DNA from: Nitrospira defluvii
GTDB taxonomy: Bacteria > Nitrospirota > Nitrospiria > Nitrospirales > Nitrospiraceae
Direction: 5' to 3'
Length of the DNA: 64,000 nt
NCBI GenBank assembly: GCA_000196815.1
Contig: FP929003.1
Location: forward strand, 2,813,501-2,877,500
Program-made: the position numbers and the translations under genes
In this document: one piece after another, positions 23,575-27,204 of the stretch
How positions within the stretch are numbered: the stretch's first letter is position 1
Layout: every line of letters begins with the position of its first letter
The notes under the pieces: generated by a model
Databases searched by the model: none
Seen by the model: only the letters and a program-made list of their open reading frames with translations
Told to the model about the DNA's origin: nothing

Positions 23575-24186
23575 GTGGCTCAAAACGCTGTTCACTCTCA
23601 GGAACCTGCAGACAACCTGGCCGACCAACGTGCAGGTGCCGGAATCGTCGTTTTATCCTCCTCCATGCAACTGCTGCATATGAATCGACAAGCTGCTGAG
23701 CTGTCCAAGCTCATCAATATGGCTGAAAACGGAGGCGCACCTGCAAAGTCCGCCCAGGGGGTGCTTCCCGCCGCCTTGACCGAACTCTGTACCGAAGTTC
23801 TGAAGGCACTCCAAGTTCGCACCGAGGCGAAGGACTGGGAACAATTTGAGGTCAAACGAATCGCAGGAAACCCAAATCAGCCAGTCCTCCTTCGAGGATT
23901 TGGCTTGCCCGATCGAGGTGGCATCCAGCATGCCCGCCTCGTCGTAACACTGGAAGAGCTTGGCCGCCGGCAGCAACTTAATACCGATCAAGCCAAGGAA
24001 CGGTTTCAGCTCACAAACAGAGAACAATCAGTGGTTGAAAATCTGGCAAAGGGATGGACCAATAAGGAAATTGCCAACGCGCTGAAGATCACCGAGCAGA
24101 CAGTGAAGGAACACATCAAACACATCATGCGAAAGACAAATTCAACGACTCGGACAGGAGTTCTAGTCCAAGTGTTCCGATCTTAA
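23575..24186 (+). CDS. LuxR-type transcriptional regulator with PAS-like N-terminus
   Basis: A 203-residue protein starting at GTG. Residues 20-120 look like a PAS-type sensory domain (AGIVVLSSSMQLLHMNRQAAEL). The C-terminal 65 residues are a LuxR/GerE helix-turn-helix: FQLTNREQSVVENLAKGWTN, KEIANALKITEQTVKEHIKH and a final basic helix. There is no phospho-acceptor receiver domain. Its position, divergent from the polysaccharide export operon, suggests it regulates that operon; the link is inferred from location only. The converging downstream neighbour is the phosphonopyruvate decarboxylase gene. Confidence 0.85.
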   Translation: MAQNAVHSQEPADNLADQRAGAGIVVLSSSMQLLHMNRQAAELSKLINMAENGGAPAKSAQGVLPAALTELCTEVLKALQVRTEAKDWEQFEVKRIAGNPNQPVLLRGFGLPDRGGIQHARLVVTLEELGRRQQLNTDQAKERFQLTNREQSVVENLAKGWTNKEIANALKITEQTVKEHIKHIMRKTNSTTRTGVLVQVFRS

Positions 24187-24324: not shown

Positions 24325-25452
24325 TCAATTCTCGACAAAATCCATGAACGCATTCTTGTTCTGACTTGGAGTAGTTAAGGGACGCCCGATATCCTTCCTG
24401 GCACCACAGCGTACTCGGACCTCCAACAAACTCGGACCACTTGAACGCTGCAACTCTTCCAGAGAGGACTGAAGTTCCTGCTTGGTTTGGACACAGAAGA
24501 CCGATTCGTAGCCGCAAGCATGAGCAATGCCCGGAACATCGACATCAAAGGCAACAGTCGGCTGCCCGCCTACCGAATCGTGGGCCCCATTGTTCACAAT
24601 GATATGCTTGAAATTACGGGGTTTGAGAACGCCGGTGATAGCAAGGCCCCCCATGTGCATGAGCAGAGCGCCATCTCCATCAAGACAATAGACGGAACGT
24701 CTGGGTTTTTGGAGCGCAATTCCTAGGGCGATTTGGGAAGCGTGTCCCATCCCTCCCACGGTTAAGAAATCCCGCTGATGGCCTTCTCCTCGCCTGCTTC
24801 TATACTCATATACTTCACGAGATGGCATGCCGGTCGTAGAAATGAGCACATCCCGTTCACCCAACGATTCGATCACCTGCTGAATCGCTTCTTCCCGAGA
24901 AAGCGGAAAATCTTTTTTCTCTACTTTGGGGGCAGCGAACGATTGAAAAGTCCCTTTTTTAATGACGAGCGCATACGGTGCGCTCATCTTTCGAACATGA
25001 GCCAAGGCATCCCTCAGAGCCGCCTGCGGATCAACTGTCTCAGGTCCTAAAATGGAATGAGGAATTTCCATTGCATCGAGCATCGAGAGCATCACCCGCC
25101 CCTGTTTCTTGTGTTGCGGTTCATCATGGACACCTGGCTCTCCTCGCCACCCGATCACAAGCAAGAGAGGAACCGAATACACTTCGGGGTCGGCCAACGA
25201 CAAAAGAGGATTGACGATGTTTCCCAACCCGGAATTCTGCAGATAGACCAGCGGAACGTTCCGTGTCGCGAGATGGTACCCGAGCGCCAGCGCCACAGCT
25301 CCTCCTTCGTTAGCACTGATGATGTGGTGACCGGCACGAGGAACATGCTCAAGACAGGCACAGAACTCCTTCAACAGAGAATCAGGTACCCCTGTAAAAA
25401 ACTCCACCCCACTGGCCTGAAGGTGCGTAATAAACTCCCGTGGATCAATCAT
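24325..25452 (-). CDS. aepY: Phosphonopyruvate decarboxylase
   Basis: A 375-residue thiamine-diphosphate enzyme that converts phosphonopyruvate to phosphonoacetaldehyde, pulling the unfavourable PEP mutase step forward. It begins IDPREFITHLQASGVEFFTGVPDSLLKEF, typical of the family. SANEGGAVALALGYHL near residue 50 carries the cofactor-activating Glu, and the cofactor-binding block is GMGHASQIALGIAL with CLDGDGALLMHMG near 250. It lies 117 bases after the PEP mutase gene on the same strand. AGGAG lies ten bases before the ATG. The pair defines the entry to phosphonate biosynthesis; a third enzyme (transaminase or dehydrogenase) is not adjacent. Confidence 0.92.
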   Translation of the reverse strand: MIDPREFITHLQASGVEFFTGVPDSLLKEFCACLEHVPRAGHHIISANEGGAVALALGYHLATRNVPLVYLQNSGLGNIVNPLLSLADPEVYSVPLLLVIGWRGEPGVHDEPQHKKQGRVMLSMLDAMEIPHSILGPETVDPQAALRDALAHVRKMSAPYALVIKKGTFQSFAAPKVEKKDFPLSREEAIQQVIESLGERDVLISTTGMPSREVYEYRSRRGEGHQRDFLTVGGMGHASQIALGIALQKPRRSVYCLDGDGALLMHMGGLAITGVLKPRNFKHIIVNNGAHDSVGGQPTVAFDVDVPGIAHACGYESVFCVQTKQELQSSLEELQRSSGPSLLEVRVRCGARKDIGRPLTTPSQNKNAFMDFVEN

Positions 25453-25569
25453 GCCGTCGTCTCTCCTGAGGCCTATGCCTCTCATAGCCGGACCTCACCT
25501 GTGTTTCACTGCGGACAGGACTTTTCATCCGACCAACACCAACTAACTGAATATTACTTGGATTGAAAC

Positions 25570-27204
25570 TCAGAAATTCCCAGCCTGGACAACATCCTCC
25601 AGGCTGTTGACATCCAACCAATGACCGACCGTATACAACACACGGACCGGGACGTCCCGTTTCAGGAGTTCCTGCAGCAATTGCGGAATGCCGGCCCTTC
25701 GATTCGCCGGATCGGCAAGCATGTTCAACAGGAGATCATTGACCTGGCTGGCCGCGCTGGAGGAGAGTTTAAGAAACCCCATCCAGACTCCATGGATCGA
25801 CTCTTCGGGAACGGTCTTCCCCAATTGCTTGAGATAGATTTTTGCATTGAAGGCTTTCCGCGAATTCGGAACGGAACATTCGGCAAAACCGCCCAAGCGG
25901 GCATAGCTGCTTTGATCCCTCCAGTTGCTGTCGACAAAAATCACGCAGTCATCCTGCTCCTGGCACAGCGCCTGCGGAATATACTTATTGAACAAGACAT
26001 CTCCATAGGAAACAATCGTCGGCTGGAAACGCCCCTTTCTGGATTGCAACGCCTGGGACAAGGAGGCCAATTCGCCGGTTTCAGCAAATTCAAGATTGTC
26101 GATATACGTCAAGTTGGGGAGGTCCACCGCCTCTTTCTTATAACCACGGACGACTAAAATATCTTTAATCCCAACGGCATTGTAGGCATCGACGATGTGG
26201 CTCAGGATGGGAACGCCCTGCACTTTCACCATGGTCTTGGGTTGGTCCTCGGTCAGTTCCCCCAATTCCTGTCCCCGGGACGCGGCCAATACCACCGCTG
26301 AGGTGCCCTCGGCACCTCGAGGCAGGTAACGTTCTTCCGCCTCCAATAACTCCGCGGCATTCTGCAGTCGAAATATTTCAGAGACCGGCGCGACCTTATC
26401 CTCAATGGAGAGGAGATGCTCACTCTCCTTCAACGCTCGCGCGGTTTTCTGCATGCTGGCCACGGCTGCGCGCAGCATATGATTTGCCCAGATCACCATC
26501 GAAAAACCATGCTGCCGAAACACATCCGTCGGCGTTGCATAGTATTTCGTGGGGACAATCACCACCGGACAACGATTGCCCCATTCCCGCTTGAACGCGA
26601 GGATCTCATCCGGCACCGAGAGCGCACTATGAATGAGAATGCCGTCCGCGCCCGCCTGATGATAGGCCTCCGCACGCCGCAACGCCTCCGCCAACCCCCA
26701 CCCGCAAATAAAGGCCTCAACCCTGGCAATCAGGCAAAAATCAGGGTCGGTCTGCGCATCTTTCCCAGCTTTAATTTTGCCGCAAAATTCCTGCATATCG
26801 GCGAGCGGCTGCGCATCGCCCTTGAGAAAACTGTTGGTCTTGGGGAACAACTTATCTTCGATGCACACCGCGGCGATATTGCGCTGTTCGAGTTTGCGAA
26901 TGAGCCGCTGCATGTTGTTGAAATTGCCGTACCCCGTGTCACCGTCGAGGAGGATCGGAATCCGGGTGGCATCGGACATGAATTCCAGGTCTTCAAGTAC
27001 CTGGGTCCAGCTGGCCTCATTGTTATCACGTACGCCGAACTGAGCCGAAATGGAGAGCCCGCTGGCCCAAATACCGGGAAACCCGGCCTCTTGGACGATT
27101 TTCGCGCTGAGTCCGTTGTGGGCTTCGCAGATGAACTGCAGGTGTTCAGAGAGGAGCAGGTTTCTAAATTGACGTGTCTTGGTCAATGCTTGGCTCGCAT
27201 TCAT
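25570..27204 (-). CDS. aepX: Phosphoenolpyruvate mutase fused to a nucleotidyltransferase
   Basis: A 544-residue fusion. Residues 1-285 are PEP mutase: DGDTGYGN at 87-94 and the diagnostic [10 protein letters not shown] at 116-125 (the EDK-x5-NS motif that separates mutases from lyases). From about residue 298 there is a nucleotidyltransferase domain ([48 protein letters not shown]). The first domain forms the C-P bond; the second probably activates a phosphonate such as aminoethylphosphonate with CTP for transfer to a glycan, as in PntC-type enzymes. Placement next to the polysaccharide locus supports a surface-phosphonate role. The ATG start has AAAGG 12 bases upstream. Confidence 0.92.

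Follow-up and report, generated by a model that had tools for sequence, protein, structure and literature searches.

The closest described systems are the Pnt clusters, which comprise Ppm, Ppd, AEPT and PntC (Rice et al. 2019, PMC6697681). In that study, about a third of mutases are fused to a PF12804 domain and clusters carrying both a fused and a separate nucleotidyltransferase are noted; the PntCs assayed there are one free-standing and one transaminase-fused enzyme, with no mutase-fused PF12804 domain among them (PMC6697681). Replacing Arg15 of the GXG(T/S)R loop, Lys25 of the PK motif or Lys153 by alanine cuts the activity of Tde-PntC to <10% (PMC6697681). Fom1-type fusions join a mutase to a cytidylyltransferase domain that is N-terminal and belongs to PF01467 (PMC6697681). 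For the mutase itself, the mussel enzyme has the catalytic residues Asp58, Asp85, Asp87, Glu114, Asn122, Arg159 and His190, with roles as assigned in PMC7916636, and a hydrolase of the same family has Thr at the Asn122 position (PMC7916636). The EDKxxxxxNS signature is taken as the mark of a valid pepM in the phosphonate survey of Acker et al. 2022 (PMC8931226). Literature searches, which left out most subscription journals, returned no paper on phosphonate synthesis in Nitrospira.

We analysed a stretch of 64,000 nucleotides from Nitrospira defluvii (the window; G000:C1:2813501-2877500), whose genome is a single contig of 4,317,083 bases. The window contains a PEP mutase-nucleotidyltransferase (NT) fusion with a decarboxylase gene beside it:

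25570-27204, minus strand: PEP mutase-NT fusion gene, 544 aa
26350..27204, minus strand: PEP mutase domain, fusion residues 1-285, motif [10 protein letters not shown] (TIGR02320; ungapped 1M1B match)
25570..26346, minus strand: fused PntC-like NT domain with non-canonical loop [16 protein letters not shown] (PF12804; AF2 model; structural match)
24325..25485, minus strand: one-chain phosphonopyruvate decarboxylase, 386 aa (TIGR03297; AGGAGA ahead of 25452)

The mutase part matches TIGR02320 over residues 13-283 with 387 bits (cut-off 319.55), carries the EDKxxxxxNS motif and aligns without gaps to mussel PEP mutase 1M1B over 277 residues (E 3.9e-124). Window residues D60, D87, D89, E116, N124, R161 and H192 are invariant in seven aligned sequences, and all catalytic positions of the mussel enzyme are kept; the window enzyme differs from it in bearing an extra C-terminal NT domain. 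Judged by these alignments the protein is a true PEP mutase, with a putative activity converting PEP to phosphonopyruvate, and it is the only EDKxxxxxNS-type mutase in the whole genome. The other two genomic matches were rejected as a second canonical PEP mutase: one is a methylisocitrate lyase-like protein and the other scores 24 bits. The adjacent decarboxylase scores 495 bits against TIGR03297 (cut-off 312.5); the ATG at 25452 (MIDPREF..., 375 aa) is the likelier start codon, since the ribosome-binding-like AGGAGA precedes it. As sequence matches, both the fusion and the decarboxylase are far beyond chance. An earlier note on this DNA had named a true PEP mutase with a fused nucleotidyltransferase and an adjacent decarboxylase, and had read them as leading to an activated phosphonate; these predictions hold up, and its remark that the neighbourhood has no aminotransferase agrees with the ORFs of window positions 1-38000, among which none was seen by eye. 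A LuxR-type regulator, recognised by eye (window 23575-24186, plus strand), is convergent with the decarboxylase gene and conserved in near relatives.

The best match of the PhnW model in the genome, at G000:C1:695410-696480, corresponds to an AEP transaminase gene (G000:C1:695407-696507) directly followed by a canonical pntC. This second locus, ~2.1 Mb from the window, has the order ppdA-ppdB-AEP transaminase-pntC-CDP-alcohol phosphotransferase, with all features below assigned by family match:

L009:14272-14769, second locus: ppdA
L009:14766-15344, second locus: ppdB
L009:15408-16508, second locus: AEP transaminase (TIGR03301, 345.1 bits)
L009:16505-17224, second locus: PntC/LicC-like protein
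L009:17258-18802, second locus: protein with C-terminal CDP-alcohol phosphotransferase domain
L009:18795-19790, second locus: flippase-like protein

A scan of this locus found no PEP mutase. The transaminase score lies below the TIGR03301 cut-off of 360.8, a value passed in only 1 of the 395 genomes searched; its Lys193 aligns with the lysine of 1M32, so that the PLP lysine is kept, and the solved sequences nearest to it are AEP transaminases, with 1M32, 6PD1 and 9KK8 ranking first. PpdB reaches 187 bits as sulfopyruvate decarboxylase beta versus 174.6 as phosphonopyruvate decarboxylase, both under cut-off. The long N-terminal part of the CDP-alcohol phosphotransferase protein resembles an NTP transferase by eye and gives no Pfam hit. 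Where the locus continues (L010), several ORFs look by eye like glycosyltransferases and one looks Wzx-like; among the glycosyltransferase-like genes lies one for a lactate racemase-like protein (PF09861, L010:6042-7376). Breakdown of AEP is unlikely, since the genome contains no detectable PhnJ and no phosphonatase above cut-off (best 45.6 of 220 bits).

This gene content suggests that the pathway is most likely split, with the mutase and one decarboxylase in the window; the second locus would contribute the two-part decarboxylase, the transaminase and the enzymes for activation and transfer. The window would then encode the opening steps of a pathway to 2-aminoethylphosphonate (AEP) that is divided between two loci, and for which we infer each reaction, the flow between the loci and the acceptor. 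The fused mutase would convert PEP to phosphonopyruvate, whose decarboxylation to phosphonoacetaldehyde would pull the unfavourable equilibrium; either the adjacent decarboxylase or PpdA/PpdB, the split enzyme of the second locus, would catalyse this step. The second-locus transaminase would form AEP, the separate canonical PntC would produce CMP-AEP, and the adjoining CDP-alcohol phosphotransferase would pass the AEP group to an alcohol acceptor, most likely a lipid, giving a phosphonolipid.

Compared with the Pnt clusters (PMC6697681), Nitrospira has the same four enzymes, but their genes are divided between two distant loci and the fused domain is acidic in place of the loop Arg. The window protein resembles Fom1-type fusions (PMC6697681) in joining a mutase to a cytidylyltransferase-like domain, whereas the N-terminal layout of Fom1 occurs in another genome, G175. 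There, L105:7622-9004 encodes a third kind of mutase: it reads EDKKGLKRNS, its N-terminal domain resembles a cytidylyltransferase (TIGR00125, TIGR01518), and the genome carries a mutase of the window type as well. In a scan of named genomes, 15 of the best 80 of 567 relatives (L174-L179, L181-L185, L187-L190) come by title from Gamma-, Beta-, Alpha- and delta-proteobacteria, Andreprevotia, Spirochaetes, Gemmatimonadota and Anabaena. There the decarboxylase adjoins the fused mutase in 14 loci, the transaminase is present in 12 and a separate PntC-like ORF in 9; L187 and L188 end shortly afterwards, and L190 shows none of the three. Because other phyla hold mutase fusion, decarboxylase, transaminase and pntC together, the window pair looks like part of this common set, the later genes of which would lie elsewhere in Nitrospira.

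Models for three enzymes (mutase, transaminase and decarboxylase) were run against 395 genomes from the phylum, 143 of which belong to the order. The transaminase was scored as present at 290 bits or more; mutases over the TIGR02320 cut-off were called type A (the window type), and those at 258-292 bits or fragmentary were called type B. Within the order, the transaminase is present in 141 genomes (exceptions G354 and G358), type A in 93, type B in 40 and neither type in 10. No genome has both, where independence would give 26 (Fisher p 2e-26, kinship ignored), and all 22 genomes of the window's genus carry type A. Across all 395 genomes, a mutase of either type occurs in 136, the transaminase in 142, and both in 133. 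Within the order, mutase and transaminase are inherited jointly. Coordinates compared by eye place the transaminase within ~6 kb on the same contig in 32 of 41 type B genomes and in 0 of 93 type A genomes; the remaining type B genomes have the two genes on separate contigs, far apart (G135) or without any transaminase (G358). When mapped on a tree of the transaminase itself (87 sequences, of which 81 carry an A or B label; the search was short and support is from SH-aLRT only), the mutase type changes at least nine times. The simplest reading of these distributions is that either type can supply the phosphonopyruvate used by a single AEP locus that stays constant. Of the 93 type A genomes, 31 have a one-chain decarboxylase above cut-off next to the mutase; as the other 62 have no such match, they would rely on the second-locus PpdA/PpdB or some unseen alternative.

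Nine genomes possess the transaminase but neither mutase. In six of these (G055, G292, G218, G304, G141 and G282) the PLP lysine is replaced by D, D, D, E, V and A, respectively, and no pntC occurs within the stretch read, while the trio ppdA-ppdB-transaminase persists. The other three (G212, G232 and G370) retain the lysine and pntC and are 90-95% complete, so the mutase may be absent merely from the assembly. Among mutase-bearing genomes sampled, the lysine is kept in 81 of 81. The joint loss of lysine and pntC with the mutase therefore suggests that the work of the transaminase is tied to the mutase. The lysine-less proteins (L099, L101, L106, L107, L235 and L237), which lie beside intact-looking ppdA and ppdB and are still open reading frames, have perhaps been reused.

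Type B is also a mutase-NT fusion. All 26 proteins examined of the 41 read EDN[VI][YF]PKRCS in place of EDKxxxxxNS, and three score 271-285 bits, under the TIGR02320 cut-off. In alignments, type B keeps the Asp, Glu, Arg and His residues assigned to PEP mutase; what changes is the Lys of EDK, which is replaced, and Asn122, which becomes Cys. From the A/B swap we infer that type B is a PEP mutase; that it lacks EDKxxxxxNS and reads EDNxxPKRCS seems to be a new point. The fusions with this motif (L085:9918-11597 and 25 further loci) usually lie near the AEP transaminase gene.

The surroundings of the window module bear on the acceptor. Among the 80 named loci kept as the best of 567 relatives, 7 (L112, L114-L117, L119 and L120) share the window's polysaccharide genes next to the module, as does G208; the probes were the window's own genes, other such genes being detectable only in five type A loci that were read by eye. 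Other neighbours are shared in L111, L113, L118 and L173, and several loci end early. By this comparison the polysaccharide neighbourhood is confined to near relatives. In the five other type A loci, with nine neighbours from four of them scanned against Pfam, the adjacent genes are ispD, ispF and a tRNA pseudouridine synthase in G175 (G145 is similar by eye), an OmpA-like gene in G108, and genes without a family from the Pfam scan in G250. In G143, the start of the mutase gene is overlapped by 4 bases by an acyl-ACP-synthetase/acyltransferase-like gene, with a dicarboxylate symporter behind. The product of the overlapping gene (L071:9003-11813) combines AMP-binding, acyl-carrier and acyltransferase domains, making a lipid link possible there. 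Around type A in other genomes, the neighbouring genes thus serve housekeeping, transport or lipid functions, and a polysaccharide link was set aside. From its one domain, the CDP-alcohol phosphotransferase makes a lipid acceptor the better guess.

The fused NT domain matches PF12804 (MobA-like NTP transferase) over residues 303-426 with 48.8 bits (cut-off 27). Its AF2 model (pLDDT 89.6) finds PntC as the top structural match (6PD2_C, Z 27.4, rmsd 2.2 over 226, 20% identity), followed by GlmU (Z 26.2) and LicC (Z 25.7). It therefore shares with Tde-PntC (6PD1/6PD2) and Spn-LicC (1JYK) the fold, as well as the PK lysine (K37) and metal-binding Asp (D116), both invariant in 32 sequences. It differs in having Glu at the loop Arg and, in type A fusions of Nitrospirales, Asn for the Asp of the EID motif. 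The loop keeps its Lys and has an Arg three residues upstream of the Glu; in place of GXG(T/S)R with its catalytic Arg, the window domain reads SRGQE. Across 108 distinct type A fusions, the Arg15 position is Glu in 106, Asp in 2 and Arg in none, and the upstream Arg is present in nearly all; type B loops read GFEKQL or similar in 25 of 26, the remaining one being unmatched by the search pattern. Separate PntCs found by a motif filter keep the Arg in 41 of 41; since the filter demanded G-x-G plus a motif like EY[ED], it preselects canonical proteins in all but the Arg position. In other phyla, separate PntCs have it in 9 of 9. Mere decay of the fused domain is ruled out by 40 invariant columns in 32 sequences. 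Sequence and model together indicate a strongly conserved domain with a PntC-like fold that yet fails the PntC signature, and which is probably not the main AEP cytidylyltransferase. An acidic residue where AEP cytidylyltransferases have Arg, despite a canonical PntC in the same pathways, seems to be a new point.

We consider it less likely than not that the fused domain is nevertheless an ordinary PntC, making CMP-AEP redundantly with the separate enzyme. Its PF12804 score, the top rank of Tde-PntC among its structural matches and the invariant lysine and Asp would all fit, and the upstream Arg could substitute for the missing one; however, the Arg15 position is acidic in 108 of 108 fusions, R15A leaves <10% activity in Tde-PntC (PMC6697681), and the same pathways retain a canonical PntC. 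A joint reading of both mutase domains is offered tentatively, at somewhat less than even chances. It holds that the fused NT domain, kept beside canonical PntC in at least four phyla, has a separate activity other than AEP cytidylyltransferase, serving another acceptor or gating the mutase by sensing a nucleotide or CMP-phosphonate. In the same reading, type B would be an unrecognised PEP mutase with Cys for Asn122, swapped with the canonical type at least nine times in the order and missed by the EDKxxxxxNS filter of phosphonate surveys.

Since mutase and transaminase co-occur, the mutase types swap, and lysine and pntC are lost with the mutase, the window mutase most probably serves AEP synthesis in trans, and we hold this two-locus reading with good confidence. 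Against it stand the transaminase score (345 of 360.8), the mutase-less trio in six genomes, and two genomes outside the order: G174, with mutase fusion, decarboxylase and CDP-alcohol phosphotransferase, and G297, with a lone mutase, neither having a close transaminase. The layout of G174, the private decarboxylase adjoining type A in 31 genomes, and a fused loop distinct from that of AEP-type PntC, which may mean a different substrate, would suit a self-contained window module, in which a non-AEP phosphonate is made from phosphonoacetaldehyde, activated by the fused domain and placed on the neighbouring polysaccharide. We regard this as improbable: mutase and transaminase occur and vanish together, the polysaccharide neighbours are not conserved, and the genome has no iron alcohol dehydrogenase-type reductase. 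The sole match in a genome search for such a phosphonoacetaldehyde reductase is an ORF of another apparent family, which we take to be a 3-dehydroquinate synthase, and this next step was rejected. Of the two gene types that the earlier note proposed to search for, the transaminase was therefore found, at a distant locus, and the reductase was not. Its suggestion that the final phosphonate may not be AEP is countered by the canonical pntC and by that transaminase, with its order-wide pairing with the mutase; its surface attachment through the polysaccharide locus gives way to the second-locus CDP-alcohol phosphotransferase as transferase candidate, and its assignment of the activating role to the fused domain is put in doubt by the non-canonical nucleotide loop. 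Less probable still, and very unlikely in our estimate, is a second locus acting on sulfonates (sulfopyruvate to sulfoacetaldehyde to taurine) and unconnected with the window mutase. The slightly higher sulfopyruvate score of PpdB and the survival of the trio in six mutase-less genomes point that way, but a PntC-like enzyme follows in the second locus, the transaminase lysine is lost in those same six genomes, and type B lies close to the transaminase in most of its genomes.

The repeated swap predicts PEP mutases without EDKxxxxxNS, so that surveys such as that of Acker et al. 2022 would undercount phosphonate makers (PMC8931226). Because of the acidic loop, it is questionable whether mutase-fused PF12804 domains should count as evidence that a phosphonate is activated; it also opens their function to a direct test. 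Among nitrite oxidisers, Nitrospira are a major group. Nearly all of the order most likely retains a predicted AEP pathway whose first enzyme has been replaced repeatedly; should AEP indeed be made by almost all its members, phosphonate would be a core surface or membrane trait of the Nitrospira group.
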